From Planctomycetota bacterium (GTDB taxonomy: Bacteria > Planctomycetota > Planctomycetia > Planctomycetales > Planctomycetaceae), in contig QQVO01000032.1 of NCBI GenBank assembly GCA_003388505.1, positions 62,001 to 126,000 on the forward strand: a stretch of 64,000 nucleotides of DNA, written 5' to 3'. The notes below the pieces were generated by a model that made no database searches, was not told where the DNA came from, and was given only the letters and a program-made list of their open reading frames with translations. Below are positions 1,359 through 15,592 of this stretch, in pieces. The translations under genes were made by a program, and so were the position numbers. Positions within the stretch are counted from its first letter, which is position 1. The number at the start of each line of letters is the position of its first letter.

Positions 1359-2831
1359 TCAACTGGATGCGGTCCGGCGCCGAGCGCGGCGGAGAGTCTC
1401 CTGAAGTTCGGCCAATGTAGGCGTCGATCCTTCACCCAATTCTGGTTGCGGTCGCGGTTCCGACCACTCGTCGTATTGATCTGCGAAGGGATCGTCGATT
1501 CGCATCGTGCGCCGCTGCTCGCGATCCGCGACGGATGACCAGTCAACAAGGAATTGTTCCTGTCCTGCATGCTCCTTGATGAATCGCGCCCTGGCGGTGG
1601 CCCGCGTACCGGTCTCGGGAACGAATGGCTCCGGCTCTTCACCCGGCAGCACGACTGGGCCGACCCGGTGATCCAGCAGTCCTTCCGATTCCAGCATCGT
1701 GAAGACCGACTCGGGGTCGGAAAAATCGTGATAGCTGTGATCCAGCAGCGCCAGTTCATTGAACAACGACGCGTCGCGCGGCAGGTTGCTCCAGGACGAA
1801 TCCGCATCGTGCAGCACGGCCGAGTAGTACTCGTACTTGGCAAACGCATCAAGCCGGGCGGACAGCCAGTCGCGATCGAGCCGCTCCATGGCCGAGAGTG
1901 TCTCCTCCCAGTCGTGCAATGCTTCTCGCATCCAGGAGGGAGACTCATCGAGGGAGTCGACGTAACGGTGTGCGGCGTCGAGATAGACGCGCTGAGTCGG
2001 AACGACCTGCGGGTGAATCCGCAGTTCCCGCCCCGGCGCTTGCAGGACATTGAATTCTTTGAGCATCCCGACCCAACTGTTGCTGTTGGAATAACCGAGG
2101 CTGGTCAGTTCCTGCTTGAGCTTGCGATCAAAGACAGCCGCCTTGACGGCCAACGTCGTCGCCGCGAACTGCAGCATGATGTTGAAGTGGGATCGGTGCC
2201 CGTCACCAAGAATGAGGTGGTAGCGGAAGCGACGGGGAGCACGGCCCATGTGGTGCTCTTCGCGGGATGTACTGTGGATCGAGCGGTTGTAGGTCGTTGA
2301 GCCGCCTGTGGTGAGTTCCATACAGATCGGCCTGACTCCGGCGAGAAACGCTCCGGAGGGAAACTCGATTCCGCCGGCGCCGCCGTAAATGCGGCTGACA
2401 AGAAACGGCAGGATCAGGTCTCCCCACTTCTTCGGATGGGCATCGACCAGGTAGTTCTCATGTGATCCCCAGACCGGGCAACCCTGCTGCAGCAGTCCGC
2501 TGTGGTTGTTGTTCGCCAGCAGCAGTCGCACTCCTCCCTCGGCCATTTTCGCCAGCGCCTTTGCGATGACGTTCTGCTGCCTCTCGACAATCAGTGGAAG
2601 CATGTAGGGCGAGCGACACTCACACATACCGAGTTCCACGTGGCCGGAGTCAACATAGACTCGTCCGTAGGGGGTAAAGTGACCGCTGGGTCCCGGAAGA
2701 GTCGGTGCGACGTCCTTCATCAGGCGGAACAGCTCTCCAACTGGACTCGAACACTCGGGCGTCGTTTCGAGTACGCAGGTGAGACACTCCAGTTCCGTGC
2801 TCACAATCGTGTCGGCATTGAGTTTCGGCAT
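1359..2831 (-). CDS. Pup-ligase/depupylase (PafA/Dop) family enzyme
   Basis: A 490-residue carboxylate-amine-ligase-fold protein. PafA joins the C-terminal glutamate of Pup to substrate lysines using ATP; Dop deamidates Pup-Gln and removes Pup. Visible family motifs are the N-terminal Mg-ATP glutamate strand STELEC (E14), YGRVYVDSGHVE (residues 55-66) carrying the catalytic aspartate D61 and E66, LLLANNNHSG (104-112) and WGSHENYLV (121-129). A REEHH segment near 190 is followed by RFRYHLILGDGHRS, which corresponds to the RLHVI-GD-N-S strand of PafA/Dop. The Asp/Arg-rich C-terminal 120 residues are less conserved. Sequence alone does not decide ligase versus depupylase; the better preserved motifs, compared with its paralog at 3183-4775, make it the likelier ligase. 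It is the last gene of the cluster, 85 nt after the Pup-like modifier. Confidence 0.88.
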   Translation of the reverse strand: MPKLNADTIVSTELECLTCVLETTPECSSPVGELFRLMKDVAPTLPGPSGHFTPYGRVYVDSGHVELGMCECRSPYMLPLIVERQQNVIAKALAKMAEGGVRLLLANNNHSGLLQQGCPVWGSHENYLVDAHPKKWGDLILPFLVSRIYGGAGGIEFPSGAFLAGVRPICMELTTGGSTTYNRSIHSTSREEHHMGRAPRRFRYHLILGDGHRSHFNIMLQFAATTLAVKAAVFDRKLKQELTSLGYSNSNSWVGMLKEFNVLQAPGRELRIHPQVVPTQRVYLDAAHRYVDSLDESPSWMREALHDWEETLSAMERLDRDWLSARLDAFAKYEYYSAVLHDADSSWSNLPRDASLFNELALLDHSYHDFSDPESVFTMLESEGLLDHRVGPVVLPGEEPEPFVPETGTRATARARFIKEHAGQEQFLVDWSSVADREQRRTMRIDDPFADQYDEWSEPRPQPELGEGSTPTLAELQETLRRARRRTASS

Positions 2832-2916: not shown

Positions 2917-3120
2917 TTACTGGCCGGACCGGTTGCGACGCTTGCGAAGTTGCTGTTCCGCGGCTTTCCCTTTCTGGCAGTTCTCGCGGGATTTCCGCGC
3001 CACATTGCCGTACTTGCCCGACTGCCGGAGAAGCCCCGCTCCACCGGGAGGCGGAGGCGCGTCATCGCCTGGGCCGGATGCGGGTTGTTGACGTTGGCGT
3101 GTGCGTTGCATGTTTTCCAT
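2917..3120 (-). CDS. Pup/UBact-like small protein modifier ending in Gly-Gln
   Basis: A 67-residue, strongly hydrophilic, Arg/Lys/Gln-rich and probably disordered protein with a Pro/Gly patch (DDAPPPPGGAG, residues 19-29). Its C-terminus is KRRNRSGQ. Pup ends in Gly-Gly-Gln or -Glu, and the Pup relatives called UBact in Gram-negative phyla end in Arg-Thr/Ser-Gly-Glu/Gln, so RSGQ is the expected conjugation end. A terminal Gln would need deamidation to Glu before ligation, the job of a Dop-type enzyme. The gene sits exactly between two PafA/Dop-family genes, 62 nt after one and 85 nt before the other. The start is supported by AGGGAG about eight nt upstream; a second in-frame ATG three codons on is possible. 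Low complexity makes homology weak, so the call rests on size, C-terminus and context. Confidence 0.8.
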   Translation of the reverse strand: MENMQRTRQRQQPASGPGDDAPPPPGGAGLLRQSGKYGNVARKSRENCQKGKAAEQQLRKRRNRSGQ

Positions 3121-3182: not shown

Positions 3183-4775
3183 TCAGGCGTCGAGCGTCGT
3201 CGCCGGCCAGTGCTGCTCGGGGCCGGGGATGGCCAGGTCGTCTCGTACGTCGTCCACCGGGTTTCGTGACTCCGCCCGTTCGAGGCGGGTCAGCCGTTCT
3301 GACAGTTCACGGACGTCCGCTGAGGAGTCGATAATCCGCTCGATTTCTTCGCCGGCCGACCGCTCCAGGTCCGGCAAGTCGACTCGAAACCGAGGGCCCC
3401 ACCGGTCTTCCGTTTCGCGAAATTCGACGTAGCTCCAGTCGATGTCGTGGATCGAATCGTGGAACTTTTCGATCATGCGGCCGCGCAAGGCGTCGCGGCT
3501 GTTGTCCGGTGCCCGCGTCCAACACGCTTCGACGGCGTCGCGTTCGATCAGCGGATCGACCAGTCCCTCATCCCATAACTGCCAGATGAGGCCCCGTTCG
3601 GGGTCGGTATTGCTGAAGTCGTGGTCCATCAGGCGGGTGGCCGCATCGCCGAATTCGGCGCCTTCCTCATGGCAGGTGTTCAGCAGGCAAAGGAGTTTGG
3701 ACGCCCAGGTCAGGTGAGGGGCGCATTGTGTCACTGAGCCTTCTTCGGCGTAGTGCGTCAGCTCGATGAGGCGCGGCAGCAGGGTCGTGGCGCGGGGTGC
3801 AACCGTCTCAGGAATCAATCCGGATTCACACATGGTCAGCAGGGTCTGTGTCATTTCGCGGAGATATGCCGGGAGCGTCAGGTTGCGCCCGTCCACCAGC
3901 GTCGCCCGCTCCGGCATGCGTCCGGTCTGCAGATCGAGCCCCCACGACCAGACGCGGAGGGCGCGGACCGGATCGACGAGTTGCAAGCCGCAGAAGTTCT
4001 CCTCCGCTGCCGCCAGCAGAGTCTGCACAAACGACGCCAGCAGCGGAGTCGACAGCAGGCAGAAATCGAACCCGATGATGTGCAGGCGCTGGAATCCCTT
4101 GCCGTGCGGTTCGCGGCGACTGTTCAGCATGCCGCGTCGAAAGGCTTCCGTGGTCGAAAGGGACGTGACTCGTGTGATGTGGTGCGCCCGCGCACTGAGG
4201 CTGTAGGTCACGCGATCTCGAAACGGCAGAAGATAACCGGATCCGAAAAAAGGAGTCGCCGCGGCCAGTCCGCTCGCCACCATGGCGAGCCGGCTGGGGC
4301 GTCGCCAGGAGTGAAACAGATCGCCCCACAGCGACTCCGAGACACAGGCGGAAAGGTGCGTGCCGAAGCTGATCGACGGGTCGAGCAGGTCGGCGTTGCT
4401 CGTCGACAGGGAGAAGCTGACCGGCTCATCCGAGGCCTGCTCAGCCAGTTGACGCGCTTCCTCGGCGGCGCGGACCATTGCCCAACATTGGGCTGCGAGA
4501 TCGTTGGGGTCGAGGCACACCGCCGATGCGCATTCAACGTGGGCCATGTCTGCATAATGGCACATTCCGGAGGAACTCCAGTTGCGAAGGCAATCCATGG
4601 AGGCTGACATGAACCGGCTACGCTCGGACCAGACCGTTGCACCCTGAGCCGTGAACGCCTCGGGAATCTGCCTGAGGACTTCTCGTGTGACACGTCCCGG
4701 ATCGATCGAGGAGTCGTCCCCGTCAATTCCCGTTGAAGAAAGTTCGCAATCGCGTCCGAGAAACTTGGGGGTCAT
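3183..4775 (-). CDS. Diverged second PafA/Dop-family protein
   Basis: A 530-residue paralog of the ligase at 1359-2831. It keeps the skeleton of the fold: FLGRDCELSS (residues 5-14, E11 matching the ATP/Mg glutamate), CHYADMAHVECASAVC (72-87, D76 matching the catalytic aspartate) and TPFFGSGYLLPFRDRVTYSL, which resembles the GAG...F-lS-RA segment of PafA/Dop. REPHGK and FQRLHIIGFDF (228-238) replace the EEPH and RLHVI-GD-N strands. The SHENYLV motif is degraded to SFGTHLSA. It could be the deamidase/depupylase partner or a catalytically altered regulator. I start at MTPKFLG because GGAG lies seven nt upstream; 43 further in-frame codons upstream have no family character. It follows the AAA ATPase gene after 295 nt and precedes the modifier by 62 nt. 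Confidence 0.75.
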   Translation of the reverse strand: MTPKFLGRDCELSSTGIDGDDSSIDPGRVTREVLRQIPEAFTAQGATVWSERSRFMSASMDCLRNWSSSGMCHYADMAHVECASAVCLDPNDLAAQCWAMVRAAEEARQLAEQASDEPVSFSLSTSNADLLDPSISFGTHLSACVSESLWGDLFHSWRRPSRLAMVASGLAAATPFFGSGYLLPFRDRVTYSLSARAHHITRVTSLSTTEAFRRGMLNSRREPHGKGFQRLHIIGFDFCLLSTPLLASFVQTLLAAAEENFCGLQLVDPVRALRVWSWGLDLQTGRMPERATLVDGRNLTLPAYLREMTQTLLTMCESGLIPETVAPRATTLLPRLIELTHYAEEGSVTQCAPHLTWASKLLCLLNTCHEEGAEFGDAATRLMDHDFSNTDPERGLIWQLWDEGLVDPLIERDAVEACWTRAPDNSRDALRGRMIEKFHDSIHDIDWSYVEFRETEDRWGPRFRVDLPDLERSAGEEIERIIDSSADVRELSERLTRLERAESRNPVDDVRDDLAIPGPEQHWPATTLDA

Positions 4776-4967
4776 GGGGATTCTCCAGTGCTGGGATGCT
4801 TCTCCGAGATGATGCGACTTTGGCTCGTTCCGACGCCATGCCGGATGCATGCCGCAGCCGTTCCGACGTGATCGCGGTTCAGCAAGCGGCCATGCACCCA
4901 ACACAACGGCGCCGGCCCGCGCGTGTGAGGCTTCAAACGGGAAACAATACTTTGGATGGTGCGAGTT

Positions 4968-5070: not shown

Positions 5071-6822
5071 TTACGCGGTGTGCAGTTTCAGGACGTGGTG
5101 GTGCTGCAACTCTTCTGCAGGGACGGCTGTGACCCGAACGACCGGGAGTTTGATCTGGAGTTGCTGCACCAGCATGCCCGGGTCGGCTTCCATCTGACGC
5201 GCGACGTCTGCCGCCGCGGTAAGGAGCGATTCTGTCACATCCTCGGGGCAAATTGCGGGAGCCCCGAGCCCGAAGACCTGACGGAGCGCCGCTTGTTTCT
5301 TGGCGCGATTCATCGCTTCCTCGTAATGTGCTCCCGCCAGAATCTGGCCGGCGGTGACGTCGTGAGTCTGCTGGTTGTCGGTCGTATATTGCACAACGGT
5401 GAGCGGAAAGACCTGCGCCGCCGCGGGGCCAAGAAAGCGGGAGCGAATCTCGTCCAGGGAGACTCCCGTTCTCGACTCGTCGTCGATCGACCAGGGAAGG
5501 GTCTGCTTTTTGGCGTAGATCGCCATGATCTCGACAGCCGCGTCCTGGGTAATCGCCGGCATGGGGCGAATCAGATCACCGAACCGTCCAGGCCGTTTGA
5601 GCGCCTCGTCCAGCCTGTCGGGGCGATTTGTCAGCCCGATTGCCAGAACGTGCGCGGGGGGCCCCTCCTGCGGCCCGCGCGAGGCGATCCCCTGCATTTC
5701 GACCAGCAGAGCTTCCAGAGCGTCGCTGTGAGAGGCGGAACTGACGGCGGAGTTGCTGCCGCCGCCGCGCTTTTGAAGGGAGTCGATTTCGTCGAAGACG
5801 AGAAGCTGCACCAGCGGCCGTTCCCGCGGGACAGCCTGCCTGGCGCGGATACTTCCCCAGAGTTCTTCGCGAACGATGCGCGCGTCTTCTCCCCACCACA
5901 TCGATTTCAGTTGATTCGGTTTGACATGGTAGAGCGCGACATCGAATCCGTGGGTCTCGCCGAAATCACGGAGCCAAACGGCCAGCCCCTCGGTGAAGAT
6001 CGTCTTGCCCATGCCGGGCTGATAGGAGTAGAGCAGCGACCCGCGCATCGGCGAGAGGTCGAAGGTATCACGGACGTCCTCAAAGACGACCCGCAGCAGG
6101 ATGTCCTGAATATACGCTTCGGCGACCTCGTCGATGCCCGCCAAGTCCTCCAGTCGGGCGTGCACCTTGTCGAGTGAGACCTCGAACTTGCTCTCGGAGT
6201 GTTCCGCCGGCAGCGAAGCGATGGCCCAGCGGGGATCGTCGCGCTGCAGGATCAGGCGCGTGTCGGGCGTCAGTTCTTCGATCCGCAGGGAGCCCGCAAG
6301 CCTGACCACGCACGTGTCGTGACCCGGCCGGGTCACTCGGACCTGAAACTGTTCCCGGTCGGCGTAGCCTTCGAAGCCGACGATGTCCCCGAGTTGGGAG
6401 GCGTGCAGTGCCGGATCGTCGTTCCACATGCCGATGACGACGCCGTCGTGAACGCACGCGAACTCCCAGGGCTGAAGTCGTTCCAGCGCCTCGACGTCGA
6501 CGCCCTGCAGAATCCCGAGTTCCTGGAGCGTCTGCCCCATGCGACAGACGGCGCGGGCTTCTCCGGCGGGCGTGCGGCGGATGGCCTCTACGTGCACCAG
6601 CGTGGCATTTTTCTCGACGAGTTCGCGAATCATGGTCTCGAGATCCTCAGCGGCCTGCGCTGCGTTTTCGCAGTTGCGACGGGTCGCCATCAGTTCGGCC
6701 GCCGCTTCGTGCGGGTTTTCCATGGTCCGCCGCAGGAGGGCGTTGAATTCCTCCAGTCGCTCCGGATCGTGCGGAGAGATTCCGGCGTCCATCAAGACGT
6801 CTGCATAGTTCTCGCGGGGCAT
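5071..6822 (-). CDS. Mpa/ARC-like AAA ATPase (proteasomal-ATPase type)
   Basis: A 583-residue ATPase. An N-terminal helical region (about 20-80) is followed by a beta-rich stretch (about 75-205) resembling the OB domains of Mpa/ARC, then one AAA module. Walker A is YQPGMGKT (267-274, K273), Walker B is LVFDEID (D344/E345), sensor-1 is GLTNRPD (N399), and the arginine-finger motif is KRPGRF (409-414). The substrate-gripping pore loop reads KSMWWGED (W309-W310-G311) where Mpa has a Tyr-Val-Gly type. Mpa/ARC hexamers unfold pupylated proteins for the 20S proteasome. This protein ends LKLHTA and has no hydrophobic-Tyr-X tail, so canonical docking is doubtful, and no 20S gene is nearby. AGGAG eight nt before the ATG supports the start. 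It lies between the JAB gene and the Pup-like half of the cluster. Confidence 0.88.
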   Translation of the reverse strand: MPRENYADVLMDAGISPHDPERLEEFNALLRRTMENPHEAAAELMATRRNCENAAQAAEDLETMIRELVEKNATLVHVEAIRRTPAGEARAVCRMGQTLQELGILQGVDVEALERLQPWEFACVHDGVVIGMWNDDPALHASQLGDIVGFEGYADREQFQVRVTRPGHDTCVVRLAGSLRIEELTPDTRLILQRDDPRWAIASLPAEHSESKFEVSLDKVHARLEDLAGIDEVAEAYIQDILLRVVFEDVRDTFDLSPMRGSLLYSYQPGMGKTIFTEGLAVWLRDFGETHGFDVALYHVKPNQLKSMWWGEDARIVREELWGSIRARQAVPRERPLVQLLVFDEIDSLQKRGGGSNSAVSSASHSDALEALLVEMQGIASRGPQEGPPAHVLAIGLTNRPDRLDEALKRPGRFGDLIRPMPAITQDAAVEIMAIYAKKQTLPWSIDDESRTGVSLDEIRSRFLGPAAAQVFPLTVVQYTTDNQQTHDVTAGQILAGAHYEEAMNRAKKQAALRQVFGLGAPAICPEDVTESLLTAAADVARQMEADPGMLVQQLQIKLPVVRVTAVPAEELQHHHVLKLHTA

Positions 6823-6948: not shown

Positions 6949-7983
6949 TCAGTCCTGATAGCGCTTCCAGCGGACCGGACGCATCTCTCCTCCCCGCCAG
7001 GCGTGGATTTCGAGAACGGGACGTTTGCCCGGCGCGCCGAGTTTTCGACCGGCGATCGGCATCAGCGTGCTCTTGCCGGGAAAGAGTGTTTCCATGACCT
7101 GGTAGTCGAGCAGTGAGACATGCGTGCATTCTGCGAGCGGGCAGCTTGCGTTCTGATTGCAATTGCCGCATTCGGTCGAGAAGCCGTGCGTGTGGACGAT
7201 CGTCATGACCGACTCACCCATTCCTCGCATGTCGGCGATCTCCTGACCCGCCGCGATCGCCTCCGGGCTGATGCTCCACTCATTCAACTTGCCGGAGTGC
7301 CGTTGATCTTCGAGACAAGTCGTGAGCAGGGTCACGATGCGCGTTGTGGTGTTTGCAAGCGGCTCTTTGAGGCGGACCAGCGCGCCGAGCGCCGTGCCCC
7401 CTGTTTCTCGGGCCCCTGCGGCGAGGCAGGCGTTGACGGCGTCCTCCGCCATGCGGTTGTTCACGAGAACCGGACGGTCGGGGACGAAACCTCCTTCCCC
7501 GAACTCTCGGAAGCCAAACTGTTCCAGTGTGCCGTCGATGATTGGCGGCGGCTGCAGCGCGGGAGGCTGCAGCGGGTGGTCGCCGGCAGCCGGCAGTCCG
7601 ATGAGCATGTGAAAGGCGGTTTCGCCTTCTGCGAGCGTGCCCTCCTGGCGGAGTTGCAGCAGCCGCTGCTGACGCGTACGACTCCAGCGACCGGACTTGA
7701 AGCGTTTGTGGTGCTCCACGGCTGAGCCATTCCCCCCGGTTCGGAGGCGGACGTCGATCTCGTCGACCAGCGGCGGAGTCTTGAATACCGGCTCGATGGT
7801 CGCGGTGATTTCGGCCGATCCGATCGGCAACACATCGGAGAGCACGCCGTCGATGTACGTGTCATCGACGAGATCCGCGACCGACTGGGTCACGTCGTCC
7901 GTCGAGAGCGGGACGTCGTCGAGATCGGCCTTGCGGCGCAGCTCGGACGAAAAACGGTGACTGTTCTCAATGACGACCTGCAT
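6949..7983 (-). CDS. JAB/JAMM metallopeptidase (deubiquitinase-like) with Cys-rich insert
   Basis: A 344-residue protein whose second half carries a JAMM signature: ARETGGTALGAL (E193 and the E-GG-L-G context), then H264-T-H266, then S290-L-L-D293. JAMM proteases use this Glu, two His and Asp to hold zinc and cut isopeptide bonds or process ubiquitin-like precursors. Between H-x-H and S-x-x-D the usual seven or so residues are replaced by 23 that contain four cysteines (C272, C275, C281, C286), which looks like a small extra metal-binding loop. The N-terminal 150 residues are unrecognised, with a Pro-rich linker near 136-148. The likely substrate is the Ubl encoded just upstream: its G86-AKSALH tail could be trimmed here, or conjugates removed. 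GAGGAG eight nt upstream supports the start. Confidence 0.85.
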   Translation of the reverse strand: MQVVIENSHRFSSELRRKADLDDVPLSTDDVTQSVADLVDDTYIDGVLSDVLPIGSAEITATIEPVFKTPPLVDEIDVRLRTGGNGSAVEHHKRFKSGRWSRTRQQRLLQLRQEGTLAEGETAFHMLIGLPAAGDHPLQPPALQPPPIIDGTLEQFGFREFGEGGFVPDRPVLVNNRMAEDAVNACLAAGARETGGTALGALVRLKEPLANTTTRIVTLLTTCLEDQRHSGKLNEWSISPEAIAAGQEIADMRGMGESVMTIVHTHGFSTECGNCNQNASCPLAECTHVSLLDYQVMETLFPGKSTLMPIAGRKLGAPGKRPVLEIHAWRGGEMRPVRWKRYQD

Positions 7984-8110: not shown

Positions 8111-8389
8111 TCAATGCAGCGCTGACTTCGCGCCGGCCGAGACTTCGGGGATCACGGTCCATTCGGACTGCTCTTCATCCAACTCGTCCAGCGTTGCCTT
8201 GCTGTCGAGCTTGACGCCGCGGTTGAACGCCGACCAGCGGAGGCCGTCGCCGGGAATTCGCATTCGATCGAGATACAGGTCAACCGCCTGGCCGACCGTA
8301 TGGCGCGGGGTGAGAGCATCGGACAGATCGGTCTCAAACCGTTTCTGTCGGCTGATGTCGGTCATCTTCAACTTTGTTGCGGCAACCAT
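8111..8389 (-). CDS. Ubiquitin-like (beta-grasp) protein
   Basis: A 92-residue protein whose second half reads like a prokaryotic ubiquitin-like domain. A helix-like DLSDALTPRHTVGQAVDLYL precedes GVKLDSKATLDELDEEQSEW, and the last strand is TVIPEVSAG, matching the L-V-PE-v-aG ending seen in Ubls of bacterial E1/E2/JAB operons. After Gly86 come six residues (AKSALH), as in precursors that need C-terminal trimming; there is a single Gly rather than Gly-Gly. Neighbours support the assignment: the E2-like and unknown genes lie upstream and the JAMM protease downstream. GGAG eight nt before the ATG fits the start; an ATG at codon 9 is an alternative. The fold is inferred from the sequence pattern, not from a structure. 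Confidence 0.75.
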   Translation of the reverse strand: MVAATKLKMTDISRQKRFETDLSDALTPRHTVGQAVDLYLDRMRIPGDGLRWSAFNRGVKLDSKATLDELDEEQSEWTVIPEVSAGAKSALH

Positions 8390-8461: not shown

Positions 8462-9373
8462 TCATTGTTCTTGTTCTGTGGCGCTGAGTTCGTACGGGAG
8501 AAACATCTTCAGATACTGCCGGGCGATGTCGGCGTTTTCGGCCAACAGCCGGATTTCCGGCCCTACCGAGCGCGCCGCTGCGGCGACGGTGGTCGATGAC
8601 CAGATCAGCCATTCGATGTTGATCAGCGACGGTCGCAGCGTGCACTCAGCAACAAGCCGACGGTCGAGAACAGCAAGCCGGCAGCCGCGGAGCCGGTCGT
8701 TCATCGACAGGGCCTGGTGAGCGACGGCCGATACCGCGTTCCCGGAGGGCATTTCATTGATGATCGTTCTCCGCAGATGGACGTTCTCCACATCGAGCAC
8801 AAGTTCGACGGGGACCGCCTGCCCATTGAGGCGCGGCCGGAGTTCCCATCCCGCATCCGTCTCAATGGCCCGGTCTTCGTCCCAGCCGGACTCATCGATC
8901 GCAGCCTTGACTGCGACTGCCGGGGAGAGTCGATCTTCTGGTTCTTTTTTGGTGTGCCGCACGCGCCTGCCGAGCATCCGGCTGAAACTGCGGCGAATCT
9001 CTCTCAAGCTCTCCGGCAGGTGAGCCACGCCGTTCAGACGGGTTTCCGCCGCCAGTTGCGCCCGATGGCGCCCCATTGCGAAACGGGCGTTCCCGGGGAG
9101 GGATGCGCTTGCTTCCAGCGCTGCTGAATCGGACACGGGAATGTCGCTGCCGAACGCGGCCCGGATGCGAACAGTGTCGTCCGCTTCCAGCGTCACGGTC
9201 GCCTTGAAGTGCGATGTCTTCAGTTCGCCGACATGGGCGCTCTGCATCTGGACGCCGCCGCGTGAAAGGGCCTCGCGGACCTGTTCAGTACGTGATGCTC
9301 CCAACCAGCGGGAGACTGCATCCGTCGCCGTTGTTGAATCTGAACTGTTAAGCGAATCAATGTCGCCCATCAT
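8462..9373 (-). CDS. Unknown protein of the Ub-like cluster, possible YbjN/secretion-chaperone-like fold
   Basis: A 303-residue protein without a recognised catalytic motif. The C-terminal 120 residues (VPVELVLDVENVHLRRTIIN ... GCRLAVLDRRLVAECTL ... NADIARQYLKMF) alternate beta strands with a long helix in a way that recalls YbjN and type III secretion chaperone domains, which bind partners without catalysis. That resemblance is weak. The middle has a basic segment (RMLGRRVRHTKK). The frame is open back to a TTG overlapping the E2 stop codon, but a strong hairpin (9395-9420) lies in that stretch and AAGGA stands just before ATG-ATG, so I start at the first ATG of MMGDID. Its fixed position between E2 and Ubl suggests an adaptor or Ubl/E2-binding role, which is inference. 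Confidence 0.65.
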   Translation of the reverse strand: MMGDIDSLNSSDSTTATDAVSRWLGASRTEQVREALSRGGVQMQSAHVGELKTSHFKATVTLEADDTVRIRAAFGSDIPVSDSAALEASASLPGNARFAMGRHRAQLAAETRLNGVAHLPESLREIRRSFSRMLGRRVRHTKKEPEDRLSPAVAVKAAIDESGWDEDRAIETDAGWELRPRLNGQAVPVELVLDVENVHLRRTIINEMPSGNAVSAVAHQALSMNDRLRGCRLAVLDRRLVAECTLRPSLINIEWLIWSSTTVAAAARSVGPEIRLLAENADIARQYLKMFLPYELSATEQEQ

Positions 9374-9394
9374 TTCATCCTTCGGCAGGGAAAC

Positions 9395-9420
9395 GCGGGC
9401 GAGCGGCGACGCTCGCCCGC
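9395..9420 (-). promoter_or_regulatory. Intergenic hairpin between the E2-like and unknown genes
   Basis: GCGGGCGAGC (9395-9404) and GCTCGCCCGC (9411-9420) are perfect 10-bp complements around a 6-nt loop. It starts 12 nt after the E2 stop and ends 22 nt before the chosen start of the next gene. It has no T-tract. Confidence 0.5.
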
Positions 9421-9432
9421 CGGCGAGAGAGT

Positions 9433-10053
9433 TCAATACAAAGGGGGGACCGGCACGAGACCGTCCATGGCGTCGGGGTTCATTGCGAAGTATCGGGCTG
9501 CTTCAAAATCGGCGGGGTGGTGCGGCCGTCGATTCTGGTAGGAGAGAATCGGATACAGGTGATTCTCGACCAACACGTCCAGCAGGATCGGTCCTTTGAA
9601 CTGATTGATCGGACCGAGGCAAACGAGACCGTGCTGCCGCGAGTAGTTGGGGTGGAAGTAAGCCATCGCCGGATCGAGCCGAACCGCAACGCATGGCTCA
9701 TCGAGATTCGAAAACATGTCGGGCCGGTAGATGACCATGCCGCGAATCGGTCCGGGCTCAAGTTCGACCGGCGCATCGCGATTGCGTTTGCTCTTGTAGG
9801 GCAGGTCGATTTCGAACTGGAACGTGCGGGGAGTTTCGCGCGGCTCGGGGAACACTCGCGCCCGGCTGTTGCGATCGCCGAATGCCTCGCAGTAGGACTG
9901 CCAGTTGTTTCGCAGGAACTCGCGCGTGAGATCCCCAACCGCCGTCCCCGCCGGCGGAAGGTCGTCGCCGAGCGACATGATCCGGGCGATCCGCCGCAGT
10001 ACCTCTTCGGTGTTCGGCTCGCGGCTTGTCTGCGAACGTGTCTGGGCGGTCAT
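9433..10053 (-). CDS. E2-like ubiquitin-conjugating-fold protein
   Basis: A 206-residue protein with the E2 core. Beta strands (RTFQFEIDLPY; GPIRGMVIYRPDMF; EPCVAVRLDPAMAYFHPNY) lead into HPNYSRQHGLVCLGPI, where HPN is 134-136 and the presumed catalytic cysteine is C145. This matches the eukaryotic E2 pattern HPN...G-(I/V)-C-L. A helix with NHLYPILSYQNRRPHHPADF follows, like the crossover helix and N-P-adp region of E2s. E2s accept the Ubl as a thioester from E1 and pass it to substrate or E3. The N-terminal 60 residues are an extension beyond a minimal UBC domain. The gene lies 32 nt after the E1-like gene. SD support is weak (AGAAG). Confidence 0.87.
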   Translation of the reverse strand: MTAQTRSQTSREPNTEEVLRRIARIMSLGDDLPPAGTAVGDLTREFLRNNWQSYCEAFGDRNSRARVFPEPRETPRTFQFEIDLPYKSKRNRDAPVELEPGPIRGMVIYRPDMFSNLDEPCVAVRLDPAMAYFHPNYSRQHGLVCLGPINQFKGPILLDVLVENHLYPILSYQNRRPHHPADFEAARYFAMNPDAMDGLVPVPPLY

Positions 10054-10085: not shown

Positions 10086-11219
10086 TCAGGCGAGGACCAG
10101 TCGCTCGCGCGGGGCGTCATCGACGATAACGGTGAACAACGCCCCCTCCTCGGGCAGTCCGAGTTGCGAGAGCGTCAGATCCCACGCGCCCAGTTCCTTC
10201 GCCTGCGATTCGTTCAAAGCATTCAGTCCGGTGTCTACATTCCAGTTCATTTCCGATTGACATTGCGGGCATTCCGGCCGCGTCGCCCATTGCGATCCCG
10301 CCCCGAGAACGACTTCCCCGCACTCGCAGCCGGCCGAAATCGAAATCGGGTGACCGTACGGCGCGATGTGAAATTCCTTGCCGTCGACGAGTGAGCCGGC
10401 GATTTCGAAGATGTCGCTGAGTGTTTCGATTTCCGCACCGCGCATCTCTCTGAGATTCCATCCGGTATGTCCGCTGATGCACTTTTCGCTGCGCATCACC
10501 TCTGCAGAAATGATCTCCATATGGGTCCAGTCGACAATGACCTCCCGATTCCGGACCAGTTCCACATCGTTCCCGGTCACGCACCGCTGGATCTGTAACA
10601 GACCCAGCGAGGCGATCGTCGACGCCAGTGCGCCGCCCGCGAGAGTGGGAGGCCGCTCCACGGTTTGCGCTCCGGGACACGGTTGCCGGACAAAATCGCG
10701 CGGCAGATCCTCGGCGGTCCATGAGCAGACCTGACAGGCGCCGCCGCGGCCGCCGTCGGAGTGCAGGACGCGCCCCATTTCGGTGCGCCCGCTGCCGTCG
10801 ACGGCGAGGCGGAACAACGGAAGCCCGAGCCCGTTGCTGATTTCTGTCAGCGATATCGCGAGCCCCCGGTCGTCGGTGCAGTCGACCAGTGCGCCGCACT
10901 TCCGCAGCACGCCGACACCGACGTGCCGAATGTCAGATTCAACGCCGTCGGCACACCCCAGACGAATGGCGCGGCATAGTTCCAACAGTGATGCGACCTT
11001 TGAGCAACCGGGATGATGCACCTGCGTGCCGAGGTTGTGCTCGGCGACCTGCTCGAAGTCGCACAACCAGACGTTCGCCCCCGATCGGACGGCCTCAACA
11101 GCAAGATGGCTGCCGACCAGCCCACAGCCGATGATTCCAATCGGGAAGCCGTCCCACCGGGCGAAGCGGTCGTTGCGGAAGGTCGACGTCTGCTGTAGCC
11201 GCGAGAACATGTCCGCCAT
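10086..11219 (-). CDS. ThiF/E1-like ubiquitin-activating-type enzyme
   Basis: A 377-residue adenylation-fold protein. The Rossmann loop is IGIIGCGLVGSH (G31-C-G-L-V-G36), followed by CDFEQVAEHNLGTQ (D54, N62, Q66), K74 and VDCTDDRG (112-119), as in ThiF/MoeB/E1 proteins that adenylate the C-terminus of a Ubl. The usual N-L-x-R-Q arginine is threonine here (T65). Candidate nucleophile C181 lies in QPCPGAQTVERPP, ahead of a Gly/Ala-rich helix typical of E1s; C162 and C165 form a CxxC. The region past 240 adds a zinc-ribbon-like CxC ... CPQC (298-320). It should load the 92-aa Ubl onto the E2. It follows the RING-like gene by 54 nt, a gap containing an 18-bp tandem duplication, and precedes E2 by 32 nt. 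Confidence 0.9.
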   Translation of the reverse strand: MADMFSRLQQTSTFRNDRFARWDGFPIGIIGCGLVGSHLAVEAVRSGANVWLCDFEQVAEHNLGTQVHHPGCSKVASLLELCRAIRLGCADGVESDIRHVGVGVLRKCGALVDCTDDRGLAISLTEISNGLGLPLFRLAVDGSGRTEMGRVLHSDGGRGGACQVCSWTAEDLPRDFVRQPCPGAQTVERPPTLAGGALASTIASLGLLQIQRCVTGNDVELVRNREVIVDWTHMEIISAEVMRSEKCISGHTGWNLREMRGAEIETLSDIFEIAGSLVDGKEFHIAPYGHPISISAGCECGEVVLGAGSQWATRPECPQCQSEMNWNVDTGLNALNESQAKELGAWDLTLSQLGLPEEGALFTVIVDDAPRERLVLA

Positions 11220-11273: not shown

Positions 11274-11846
11274 TCAGCGGCGGCTTGCTTCCGCCAATTC
11301 GAAGAGACGCTGCAAATTGCCGCTGCGCGGCGCCGGTGGTTCCCAGTCGCCTGCATTGGGATCGAAGCCGCAACTCGGGCAGCGAAATCTGGCATTCGCG
11401 GCGAGCGCCTTGTCCCAGACTGCCGATCGATACACCGCCGTACACGGTGTACCGGGACGACCGGGGCAGGCGACGATGTCCTCGCCCGCTTCCAATCGCG
11501 CTTTGGTGACGTAGCAGTACTGATCGACACCGTGGACTTCGGGACGGTACGCTTCCGTTTCGACGTCCACCGACACGGCAACCCAATAGCGGCGATCGTC
11601 GAAGTCGAGACGATCCGTGTGCCGCAGCACGTGGATGCCGCCCGTCAGAGGGACGCCGTTGCGAACCACCGCAGCCGCGAGTTCATTCGGAACCAGCAGC
11701 GCTGCGATCCCCTCGTCCAGCGCGGGAGCCGGAATCACTCGGGGCAACGAGTCTTGAGATTCGTCCGTTGTTTGCGCTGAGAGCGGCTCTGCTGCTGCCA
11801 CACTGCGGGAAGTTCTCTGCTCGCCGACCATTTCCCAAAGAATCAT
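11274..11846 (-). CDS. RING-like treble-clef protein (E3-like), first gene of the modifier cluster
   Basis: A 190-residue protein. A beta-rich N-terminal domain (about 45-108, with LLVPNELAAAVVRNGVPLTG and HVLRHTDRLDF) leads into a cysteine array: C111, C127, C135, C156, C159 with EDIVACPG...TPC...W144...RFRCPSCGF. Bacterial RING-type proteins next to Ubl/E1/E2 genes show the same order, a small beta domain that sets a hairpin (G--VL-H-D) and then a binuclear treble clef. RING E3s bring E2 and substrate together. Some ligands of a full eight-ligand RING are not obvious, so it may bind a single zinc or use His/Asp ligands. AGGAGAGG seven nt upstream supports the ATG. It opens the ten-gene minus-strand run. 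Confidence 0.7.
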   Translation of the reverse strand: MILWEMVGEQRTSRSVAAAEPLSAQTTDESQDSLPRVIPAPALDEGIAALLVPNELAAAVVRNGVPLTGGIHVLRHTDRLDFDDRRYWVAVSVDVETEAYRPEVHGVDQYCYVTKARLEAGEDIVACPGRPGTPCTAVYRSAVWDKALAANARFRCPSCGFDPNAGDWEPPAPRSGNLQRLFELAEASRR

Positions 11847-12814: not shown

Positions 12815-15592
12815 TCACTCCTCGTCGGTCAACGCCGGTGATTCGTCGCCGTCCAGCGGCGGAACTCGCCCTGCACTCCACCGGATTCCCGCCAGCCCGC
12901 CATCGGCAGCCAGAGGCTCGTTCGGCGTGGTTTGCAGTTCAAAATCCGACCTTTTCCAGGTGGAAAAGTCCTTGGAACTCCAGCGGGGCGTTCTCTTCAG
13001 CAGTCGTCCCTCAATGAGTTGATCGGAACCGATATGGAACTCGGCAAACGCGACGTCCGTGCGCTCAACGAAGGTGTCGATTTCCAGGGCAACGCCGTCG
13101 ACGTCGTAGTAGGTCGTGTCCGAACGCCAGAAGAGCCGGTTTCGCAACGAACCGGCGTCGTCTTCGCCGGACATCACCATCAAGGGATTGCCGGGGCGAA
13201 CGACGATGGCGCTGTCTTCGCACGAAAAGTTGATAGGGAGAAAGTCCCGGCCCAAACCGGCTTCGAGTCTCAGCATGCCCTGACTGGCAACGGCCGTCAC
13301 ATGCCGCAGGCTGAAGGACAGGGAATCGTCGTTCGAGCGACTTGTACGATCGCTCATATCGAGGCCTCCGACCCAGGCGAACACTCCCCGGATCGCCAGA
13401 GCGGTGTTCTCGAGATTCACGCTGATCGGATCCAGAGTGGAATGCACAATCAAATCAGACTGGCCGCGAACGACACAATCCTTCCAGTCCACAGTGGACT
13501 GTCGCTGCGTCATTCTCTCCGGCATGAACATTTCCGAGTCGCGGCTTCGCGGGGGCTCGAATTCGACAATCGTGCTCGGCAACTGATTCGGATTTTTTAC
13601 GACGACTTCCACGCCCCGCATCTCCAGCTTCTGCGAGTGCTCCATGGAAAACACAGCCCAACGATCGCTCACCGACGTCTCGACGGGAACGACCAGCGTG
13701 ACATCGTATATCTGGAGCGAGCTGTCTTGCCCTTCGATGCCGATCATCCGAGTGACGTCGTCCGTCCCGAAGACCTTAGGAGCAACGAATTCAACGGCCG
13801 GCCGTGCGCCTTTGCGGGCGCGGATGACGAGTTTTTTGTCCTGAATCCGCACCGGCGGCTGCGGCTGGAGGAGCAGGCCGTCAAACTGAAGCTCGATCCG
13901 CGCCCCGTCCGGCGCGGCTTGACAGGCGGCGGCCAGCGTCGAAAACCGCTCATCATCCCCGCCGTCAGGATTCAGGACGACGAATGGATTCTCGCTGATC
14001 GTCGCGGGCCTGGCCGCGTCTCCATCGCCTCTTCGTCCCGGCAGCGGTGTCAAAAAGTCGCGAAGTTCCTGATCGAGATTTTCAGCGGCGATTCTCGAAG
14101 GCCCCGCATCGCGCGAGCCTATCGACGGGTCATCCGGATTCGGTTGACTGTTGCTCTGCGAATCGAGGCTCGATGGACTGAACCCGACGCCCGTGCTGTC
14201 GATCACCAGATTGCGTGATGGAGAGTGGACTCCGTCCACCAGACCGATGGCGGTGTTGCGCGGCGCCGGCGGTGCAGAATCATCCGGGTCGTCGACATCG
14301 CTCGATGAATCATTGCCGCCGGCAGCGTCCTCGGGTGAGAACTGGGCTGATGCCCGCTCGCGCGGTAAATCGGTCGCCGGCTCATCGTCTGCAAGTCCCG
14401 GCCAGGGAACCCGGTTCACTCCGAGTGCGATCACCAGGAGCAACGCCAGCGTGACGAGCCAGCCCCGGTTCCGTTCCCAGAATTGGGCGCGCGGTTCGTA
14501 GAGAGGCGTCACCCAGATGACGTCCTCCGCGTGCATGGGCCGCAATCCGAGTTCGAGCGCCACCTGGGTCAAATCCTGAATCACGTGATCCGGAGTGGCG
14601 TAGCGCTCATCGGGGTTGCTGGCCATCATGCGCCGCACAATCCGCGAGAGTTGGGGCGAAACGAGCGGATTGCGGTCGGCCGGGTCGGGCGGGGCGTCCC
14701 GGTGGTGGTCGACGACCTTTTTGAACATCGTCCCCGCCGGAAACGGCGGTTCTCCCGTCAGCATGTGGTACAGCGTGCAGCCGAGCGAATAGATGTCGGC
14801 CCGAACATCGACTTGCCGCGGATCAATCGCCTGCTCGGGTGCGATATAGTCAAACGTTCCGAGCGTCGTCCCGTCGACGGTGAGATCCTGGGATCGTCCG
14901 CTTTCCTGCTGCCGGGCAAGGCCGAGATCAACAAGTTTCGCCCGGCCTGCCGGCGTAATAATGATATTCGACGGCTTGATGTCACGGTGAACGACGCCGG
15001 CGGCATGCGTGTGTCGGAGCGCCTGGGCGACCTGCATCGCGTAGTTGACGGAGTCGACCGGGGACAGCATGCCTTTCTGGAGTATGAATTCCCGGACGTT
15101 TGTGCCGCGGATAAATTCGAAGGCGATGAAGTGCGCGCCCTGGTCTTCGCCGATGTAATGCACCCGGGCGATGTTCTCGTGGTCGAGGCGGGCCGCGGCA
15201 CGGGCTTCGTTCTCGAAGCGCTCGACGGAAGCTCGGTCCCGCGAGAAGGCGGGGGCGAGTACCTTGAGCGCGACGACGCGGTTCAGCCGTTCATCGACCG
15301 CGCGAAAGACGGCCCCCATCCCTCCCTGACCGATCCGTTCCTCAATGACGAAGTGTCCGATCCTGACACCCGCGGCGGAGTGATCGGATTGATCGGAATC
15401 GTCCCCGCGATTGATGCCGAACAGTCGTGAGAGGACGGACCGCTCAGCCCCCTGATCGCGAGTTTCCGCGGCCTGTGCGGAATCACCGGCCGCCTGCTGA
15501 TCGCCCGGCAGAGGGCGCAGAAACACGTGCCGCGTCCCGGACTCTGCCGGTTGCGGGGATGCATCAGTCGTGTTTGCTAAACTGGACGGCAT
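12815..15592 (-). CDS. Transmembrane Ser/Thr protein kinase (Hanks type) with extracytoplasmic beta-helix-like domain
   Basis: A 925-residue protein. A disordered N-terminus (1-75) precedes a kinase domain (about 79-345) with glycine loop IGQGGMGAVF (88-97), K110, E129, catalytic HRDIKPSN (202-209, D204), DLG (222-224) and APE (251-253), so an active kinase is expected. One transmembrane helix follows (about 378-393). Then come a Ser/Asp/Pro-rich linker and a long C-terminal region (about 540-900). This opens with NPDGGDDERFSTLAAACQAA and many short beta strands, resembling right-handed parallel beta-helix (pectate-lyase-like) sensors. It would sense an external signal and phosphorylate cytoplasmic targets. 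It is encoded about 1 kb upstream of the modifier cluster and on the same strand; a functional link is conjecture. Confidence 0.9.
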   Translation of the reverse strand: MPSSLANTTDASPQPAESGTRHVFLRPLPGDQQAAGDSAQAAETRDQGAERSVLSRLFGINRGDDSDQSDHSAAGVRIGHFVIEERIGQGGMGAVFRAVDERLNRVVALKVLAPAFSRDRASVERFENEARAAARLDHENIARVHYIGEDQGAHFIAFEFIRGTNVREFILQKGMLSPVDSVNYAMQVAQALRHTHAAGVVHRDIKPSNIIITPAGRAKLVDLGLARQQESGRSQDLTVDGTTLGTFDYIAPEQAIDPRQVDVRADIYSLGCTLYHMLTGEPPFPAGTMFKKVVDHHRDAPPDPADRNPLVSPQLSRIVRRMMASNPDERYATPDHVIQDLTQVALELGLRPMHAEDVIWVTPLYEPRAQFWERNRGWLVTLALLLVIALGVNRVPWPGLADDEPATDLPRERASAQFSPEDAAGGNDSSSDVDDPDDSAPPAPRNTAIGLVDGVHSPSRNLVIDSTGVGFSPSSLDSQSNSQPNPDDPSIGSRDAGPSRIAAENLDQELRDFLTPLPGRRGDGDAARPATISENPFVVLNPDGGDDERFSTLAAACQAAPDGARIELQFDGLLLQPQPPVRIQDKKLVIRARKGARPAVEFVAPKVFGTDDVTRMIGIEGQDSSLQIYDVTLVVPVETSVSDRWAVFSMEHSQKLEMRGVEVVVKNPNQLPSTIVEFEPPRSRDSEMFMPERMTQRQSTVDWKDCVVRGQSDLIVHSTLDPISVNLENTALAIRGVFAWVGGLDMSDRTSRSNDDSLSFSLRHVTAVASQGMLRLEAGLGRDFLPINFSCEDSAIVVRPGNPLMVMSGEDDAGSLRNRLFWRSDTTYYDVDGVALEIDTFVERTDVAFAEFHIGSDQLIEGRLLKRTPRWSSKDFSTWKRSDFELQTTPNEPLAADGGLAGIRWSAGRVPPLDGDESPALTDEE

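Follow-up and report, generated by a model that had tools for sequence, protein, structure and literature searches.

The window, the whole 64,000-nucleotide stretch of planctomycete DNA that was analysed, encodes ten consecutive genes on the minus strand, here called A to J from 3′ to 5′. Genes A to D comprise a PafA-type ligase (A), a 67-aa Pup-type modifier (B), a Dop-type enzyme (C) and an Mpa/ARC-like AAA ATPase (D). Six further genes (E–J) lie 5′ of D on the same strand; they include a JAB-type metallopeptidase, a ubiquitin-fold protein, an E2-fold protein and an E1-type enzyme. The earlier note on this DNA described the modifier and its two flanking genes and overlooked the ubiquitin-like system in the same operon.

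The modifier ORF and its relatives

ORF B (2917–3120, minus strand) begins with an ATG and encodes 67 aa ending in …KRRNRSGQ, just as the earlier note had described it, with R-S-G-Q at the C-terminus. Its description as hydrophilic and Arg-rich is borne out by a content of 10 Arg and 5 Lys and a GRAVY of −1.69. The ORF is separated by 62 bases from C on its 5′ side and by 85 bases from A on its 3′ side. By eye, a Shine-Dalgarno-like AGGGAG lies immediately 5′ of B, and similar stretches precede most of the modifier ORFs compared. From its reading frame, homologues and signs of selection, B is a real, conserved ORF, beyond chance.

Among 40 genomes searched (its own included), the modifier was found in two, the window’s and G015, a member of the same family with a homologue 52% identical to B and a second tandem copy (35%). 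These divergent G015 copies (L014:1724–1918 and 2013–2213, minus strand) both end in PGQ and lie between Dop-type and PafA-type genes. The wider comparison covers 15 pair loci, in each of which a single contig carries the two ligase types. Nine are near loci (the window, L014, L015, L016, L033, L034, L035, L037 and L039) and six are distant (L018, L019, L020, L021, L022 and L023). Left out of the counts are repeats of G015, G058 and G227 (L032, L036 and L038), G459 (split contigs), G450 (a fragment) and the lone ligases of G272, G481 and G013. The earlier note had offered absence of the gene beside other PafA/Dop pairs as a counter-test; in every one of the 15 pair loci the PafA-type gene has a small ORF immediately on its 5′ side. 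In 14 of them it sits between the two ligase-family genes, and in L019 the order is modifier-A-C.

These 15 loci encode 16 modifiers, which end in GQ (ten: the window, both of L014, L033, L034, L037, L039, L020, L022 and L023), GE (five: L015, L016, L018, L019 and L021) or AE (L035 only). A second counter-test of the earlier note concerned variable or extended C-termini, and the near-group modifiers all end in Gln or Glu (10/10), mostly after RRN (RKN in L015). Its overall reading of a Pup-like modifier with a PafA/Dop pair therefore came through both tests. Two of its expectations held in part. The invariant GQ/GE ending is present in nine of the ten near-group modifiers but is AE in L035. 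Conservation does occur in the last ten residues, but not only there, as a central segment with a Cys in nine of the ten is also kept. In the near-group alignment (n = 10), R61 and N63 are invariant and A41, C48, R62 and G66 nearly so.

Seven of the nine near-group relatives were detected via similarity rather than by their ending, and the other two via reading frames. The distant modifiers were picked by an ending filter (L018, L019, L020 and L023) or by reading frames (L021 and L022), so their endings are weaker evidence. Among 1134 ORFs of 50–115 aa from 15 sources (modifiers included), a G[EQ] ending occurs in 18, and E or Q is the last residue of 83. Gln and Glu interchange at the modifier end in both the near and the distant group, as an active deamidase would allow. 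Uncorrected pN/pS values were 0.33–0.71 in all seven modifier pairs tested, at a high pS of 0.48–0.84. For the L039 modifier two starts are conceivable, giving 52 or 69 aa. Three of the 16 modifiers (L033, L037 and L021) contain no Lys at all, and therefore tag chains cannot be general.

In size and character B resembles a Pup, typically a hydrophilic protein of 60–70 residues (50–90 in PMC2588565): it has 67 aa and a strongly negative GRAVY. Likewise, its group ends in G[EQ] (RSGQ in the window; 15 of 16 modifiers) and adjoins a PafA-family gene in 15 of 15 pair loci. Ten of the 16 modifiers, some of them from the distant group, were scanned with Pfam and NCBIfam, and no Pup match came up at E ≤ 10. 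A near-group modifier profile did not match solved Pup in the PDB, and hhalign aligned the near-group and distant-group profiles at about 1% probability. The distant-group profile ranks Pup chains first in the PDB, only at E = 0.026, and by sequence these distant modifiers look like Pup. The sensitivity of such scans is limited, as the distant group is likewise without a Pfam match though its profile ranks PDB Pup first. For the window-group modifier, family labels from Pfam, NCBIfam and PDB profiles yielded nothing usable and were set aside. Because no similarity to Pup was detected, we call B Pup-type by position, size and ending, and not a member of the Pup family.

The ligase-family genes and the ATPase

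Genes A (1359–2831, minus strand) and C (3183–4904, minus strand) both belong to Pup_ligase (PF03136), with 131 and 139.7 bits, respectively (cut-off 25), in agreement with the claim of the earlier note that ligase-family genes flank B. The true start of C is probably the ATG at 4775, judged from its orthologues. In NCBIfam, A scores 100.4 bits as PafA vs 74.1 as Dop, and C scores 106.2 bits as Dop vs 68.8 as PafA; both are below the equivalog cut-offs (551.3 bits for PafA and 492.3 for Dop). The same ranking, A as PafA over Dop and C as Dop over PafA, was found in six of six near loci scanned (the window, L014, L033, L035, L037 and L039), at scores far under those cut-offs. In the distant L020 and L022, C is again Dop-like, and A scores about equally as either (PafA 207.2 and Dop 207.8 bits in L020; PafA 194.9 and Dop 190.9 bits in L022). 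Compared with the PDB as a single sequence, the window’s A matches solved Dop (65.2 bits) better than solved PafA (49.7 bits); C also prefers Dop (67.3 bits) to PafA (45.3 bits). This PDB comparison counts against naming A as PafA; gene order favours it.

A tree built from the A-type and C-type proteins (15 of each) separates the two types by one branch with 100/100 support; it contains no reference PafA or Dop, and L018 and L019 carry a long-branch warning. The A-type active site retains ExE in 15 of 15 proteins and the catalytic Asp in 14 of the 15 aligned. The window’s A has both within its Pup_ligase domain. All 15 C-type proteins contain a catalytic-type Asp, preceded in the alignment by a variable region, and their first motif is DxE in place of ExE (15/15). 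C combines the features taken to mark a Dop: a Pup_ligase domain, the catalytic Asp and a sequence nearer to Dop than to PafA. The PafA-type protein of G075 (L018:8963–10627, plus strand) lacks the otherwise conserved Asp; PF03136 matches this genome six times, in part through fragments of a single gene. Three PafA-type frames (L016:10347–12668, minus strand; L033:9989–12358, plus strand; L034:2289–4619, plus strand) continue for ∼300 residues past the ligase domain, an extension that the window’s A does not have. In the long L033 frame, Pfam recognises only Pup_ligase at E ≤ 0.1.

Gene D (5071–6822, minus strand) encodes an Mpa/ARC-like AAA ATPase (AAA, 54.1 bits) with the tail …VLKLHTA. Against pup_AAA (TIGR03689) it scores 85.1 bits, below the cut-off of 504.75. 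An ending of the LKLHTA kind is also seen in most near orthologues. Genes for a 20S core were not found with PF00227 in 11 genomes, the window’s own included; the four matches were all HslV and seven genomes had none. HslV is thus the proteasome-fold gene of G015, G272, G089 and the window’s genome (G000), where the sole match is HslV, followed by HslU. In section 5 of PMC3511204, proteasome-less corynebacteria have pup directly before pafA and keep the ATPase gene, and their ATPases are described as lacking the proteasome-interaction motif or docking tail. The ATPase-Dop-modifier-PafA order of the window matches such proteasome-less pupylation loci.

The likeness to actinobacterial Pup extends to the length of 60–70 aa, the Gly-Gln/Glu end and the gene order: dop precedes pup and, in loci lacking proteasome genes, pup stands immediately ahead of pafA, as given in the same section (PMC3511204). 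B differs in having no detectable sequence similarity to Pup. Its group ends in SGQ or PGQ-type sequences, unlike the GGQ/GGE of Pup, and has an Arg-rich tail and a conserved Cys. The setting differs as well, with 20S genes not found (11 genomes) and ubiquitin-like genes in the operon.

The ubiquitin-like genes and the distribution of the operon

Gene E (6949–7983, minus strand) encodes a JAB-type metallopeptidase with an N-terminal region and a Cys insertion, its ETG, HxH and SxxD motifs aligned with those of the L020 protein. The window protein falls under the Pfam cut-off (E = 0.16), whereas the L020 protein passes the cut-offs of both JAB and Prok-JAB. Among the E proteins, ETG is present in nine of nine that are readable there, and HxH and SxxD in ten of ten.

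Gene F (8111–8389, minus strand) encodes a ubiquitin-fold protein, as predicted by AF2 and Foldseek, with a conserved …VSAG followed by a six-residue tail. The best AF2 model has a pLDDT of 86.3 and the other four 70–74. Foldseek matched the Get5 Ubl, archaeal ubiquitin, ubiquitin and SUMO (best E 3.5e-5). VIA-align ranked Ras-binding domains, ubiquitin-like proteins and a bacterial Ubl in a mixed order at Z 9.0–9.9, so the fold alone does not show that F is a modifier. All seven near Ubl proteins contain Ala-Gly, followed by no residue in four and by 2 (L033), 6 (window) or 15 (L037) residues in the others. From the sequences, Ala-Gly with a tail of 0–15 residues resembles precursor processing.

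Gene G (8462–9436, minus strand) encodes a conserved, syntenic protein with no assigned function and no Pfam family over the cut-off; it overlaps H by 4 bases. Gene H (9433–10053, minus strand) encodes an E2-fold protein with Cys145 in a CLG triplet, as indicated by an AF2 model (pLDDT 77.5), fold comparison and alignment. All 50 matches listed in each of two comparisons with the PDB are E2-fold proteins; Z is 8.9–9.9 in the first, and the second, by Foldseek, gave a best E of 3.4e-3 and none at 0.001. Cys145 is invariant in the six proteins aligned.

Gene I (10086–11219, minus strand) encodes an E1/ThiF-type adenylating enzyme (PF00899, 34 bits; cut-off 28.1). Gene J (11274–11846, minus strand) encodes a Cys-rich protein, possibly a RING-like E3 (PF14446 Prok-RING_1, E = 0.044). 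Its L020 counterpart scores 26.7 bits with Prok-RING_1 against a cut-off of 29.1, and the counterparts in L033, L037, L039 and L021 have no such match at E ≤ 0.1. By sequence, the RING identity of J stays a weak assignment.

Together, a Ubl with a C-terminal Gly, an E1, an E2 and a JAB protein (the last below the Pfam cut-off in the window) make up a putative type 6d-like conjugation operon. Type 6d bacterial ubiquitin-like operons were reported in 2006 (Iyer et al., PMC1779556), and the excerpted account gives them a C-terminal-Gly Ubl, a JAB protein with an extra N-terminal domain, an E1, an E2 and a further protein, as here. Unlike the window, the type 6d operons are given no Pup, PafA, Dop or Mpa-like genes in that excerpt (PMC1779556).

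All ten genes occur in order in the window, L014, L015, L033, L037 and L039, and in G227 over two contigs, so that the set is complete in seven of seven fully readable near loci; contig ends truncate L034 and L035, which stand outside this set. Profiles recover I, H, G, F, E, D, C and A in the distant L022 (H and F weakly, at E = 7.6e-4 and 4.6e-4) and I, E, D, C and A in L020 and L021, which also contain E2-like and Ubl-like frames by eye. The operon core thus recurs in three of six distant loci. No gene of the ubiquitin-like half was found by profile in the stretches examined of L018, L019 and L023 (∼5.8 kb above D in L018; a 5.7-kb contig in L023). With the ten-gene set or its core recurring, the genes of a Pup-type and of a ubiquitin-like pathway thus stand in one operon, grouped about a single unfoldase.

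The system is rare and patchy. A-type matches were found in 10 of 392 genomes drawn from the phylum and in 7 of 170 genomes of the window’s family; a search of the same 170 found C-type matches in three. A genome-contig scan with an alignment query returned eight loci, three of them already known, and one with a single-sequence query returned no relative. One locus from the alignment-query scan lies on a contig titled Gemmatimonadetes, from a binned genome whose label is provisional. An E2 profile matched 4 of 392 genomes, three with the operon and G383; it is insensitive, having missed G055, G088 and G052, all with E2-like frames by eye. G383 (L062:8991–9898, plus strand) contains pieces of E1, E2 and JAB genes whose reading frames are broken, and PF03136 has no match in this genome; the pieces may be what is left of a decayed operon.

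Some genomes encode a lone ligase: the only PF03136 match is A-type in G272 (one contig), G481 (78% complete) and G013. The ORF just 5′ of it, found by a filter allowing Glu or Gln ends, ends in SSGE in G272 and PSGE in G481 (context LERRRSPSGE). The coordinates recorded for lone PafA-type genes with a 5′ SGE-ending ORF, in genomes without a second PF03136 match, are L017:12451–12786 (plus strand) and L058:6271–6504 (minus strand). Neither the lone ligase of G013 nor, in a scan for Gly/Ala-Glu/Gln endings, the G459 C98 ligase had a visible modifier next to it. Glu in both lone-ligase modifiers is expected where there is no deamidase, though these are only two cases; the prediction is that, where a ligase lacks a Dop partner, its modifier will be encoded with Glu as the last residue. 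A single PafA/Dop homologue has been described in some planctomycetes (PMC7947786), and the ligases that stand alone in G272, G481 and G013 are likely of this type. Unlike those genomes the window has two enzymes, and in the excerpted text no modifier is named for the single homologue (PMC7947786).

Proposed mechanism and alternatives

We consider it very probable that B serves as the tag in a Pup-type protein-modification system that works without a proteasome and is co-encoded with a ubiquitin-like pathway. Gene presence and order, conservation, predicted folds and kept catalytic residues are the basis from which we infer the reactions, the targets and any link between the tags. The Dop-type C would deamidate the C-terminal Gln of B to Glu. 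The PafA-type A would then activate the Glu side chain with ATP and join B to a target lysine, and C could also take the tag off. The Mpa-like D would capture tagged proteins and unfold them without a 20S core. The ubiquitin-like cycle would involve the E1 (I), the E2 (H), the Ubl (F) and perhaps J as a RING-like E3, with the JAB-type E freeing F at Ala-Gly. Each tag would have a remover of its own, and both would probably lead to the same unfoldase.

For a tag, we count the presence of a modifier in all 15 pair loci, the terminal Gln or Glu of all 16 modifiers with interchange of the two, the Glu-ending ORF at two lone-ligase loci, the kept catalytic residues, the corynebacterial gene order, the finding of HslV as the only proteasome-fold gene over 11 genomes, and the ten-gene set of the near loci. 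Against it, we count the missing Pup match, the closer match of A to Dop in the PDB, the DxE of C, the AE end in L035, the Lys-less modifiers, the ligases of G013 and G459 with no modifier seen, and the three of six distant loci without genes of the ubiquitin-like half.

A stronger version is a single dual-tag machine, in which both modifiers would be placed on common substrates served by a shared Mpa-like unfoldase and by JAB- and Dop-type removers, without a proteasome. We put this forward tentatively, as a possibility with somewhat less than an even chance. The tags could also act on each other, for example if a PafA-type reaction joined B to a lysine of F. Only the operon itself suggests that the tags come together, on shared substrates or on D, and the two halves may be neighbours without joint action. 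They would then be independent pathways on one transcript, with neither substrates nor unfoldase in common, as suggested by the lone PafA-type genes of G272, G481 and G013 and the distant pairs of L018, L019 and L023, all without ubiquitin-half genes in the stretches examined, and by the broken E1/E2/JAB remnant of G383, a genome with no PF03136 match. However, the ten genes stay together in all seven readable near loci, one of them on a contig titled Gemmatimonadetes, and the core persists in the distant L020, L021 and L022. On balance we regard such independence as rather unlikely.

Alternatively, B itself could be a small partner protein that is not conjugated, for example one that regulates or adapts the ligase-family enzymes or the ATPase, with the Gln/Glu end as a docking feature. 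The missing sequence match to Pup would fit this, as would the AE end of one modifier and the conserved centre, whose Cys in nine of ten near-group modifiers suggests a binding segment. It accords poorly, however, with the Gln or Glu that closes every one of the 16 modifiers and with the interchange of the two, with the kept catalytic residues of both enzymes, with the fixed position beside the PafA-type gene and with the role of Pup in the same gene order (PMC3511204), and we judge it improbable. That B is a chance or mis-called ORF, as its shortness and low-complexity N-terminal half might suggest, is scarcely credible given the frame, position and ending kept over ten near-group modifiers, pN/pS below 1 in seven of seven pairs and the Shine-Dalgarno-like stretches 5′ of most modifiers.

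Pup systems have been reported from planctomycetes and deltaproteobacteria, in which Pup lies beside PafA homologues without linkage to proteasome genes and ends in G[EQ] (Iyer et al. 2008, PMC2588565). The window shares these features. In contrast, the ligases of those systems have four membrane segments and a membrane-protein neighbour, and neighbouring E1, E2, Ubl or JAB genes are not mentioned in the main text of that report (PMC2588565). Pupylation and ubiquitination have been argued to be separate inventions of protein tagging (PMC2588565). Literature searches returned no title or abstract on one operon with both Pup and ubiquitin-like genes, and an earlier description is possible. A further Pup-like modifier of Gram-negative bacteria, UBact (Lehmann et al. 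2017), reportedly ends in an R-x-G-[EQ] type sequence and is linked to proteasome genes. That linkage would set it apart from B, as proteasome genes were not found here.

What may be new here is the combination of Pup-type and ubiquitin-like chemistries in one conserved operon; both halves are separately known. The two chemistries, each with a modifier, an attaching enzyme and a remover, appear to share an operon and an unfoldase, with no 20S core found. Were they to act jointly, two sorts of tag of separate origin would be read by a single cellular machine, and the locus would offer a natural system for studying such reading and the role of a Pup-type tag where there is no proteasome. The finding also points to small modifier genes that go unrecognised by Pfam and NCBIfam (10 of 16 scanned).

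A defence-system reading was considered and set aside; PADLOC matched just the ATPase (TRIP13, IetA) and the E1, with a best E of 3.9e-7. Finally, a 925-aa ORF 5′ of the operon (window 12815–15592, minus strand) contains, by eye, the motifs of a Ser/Thr protein kinase.
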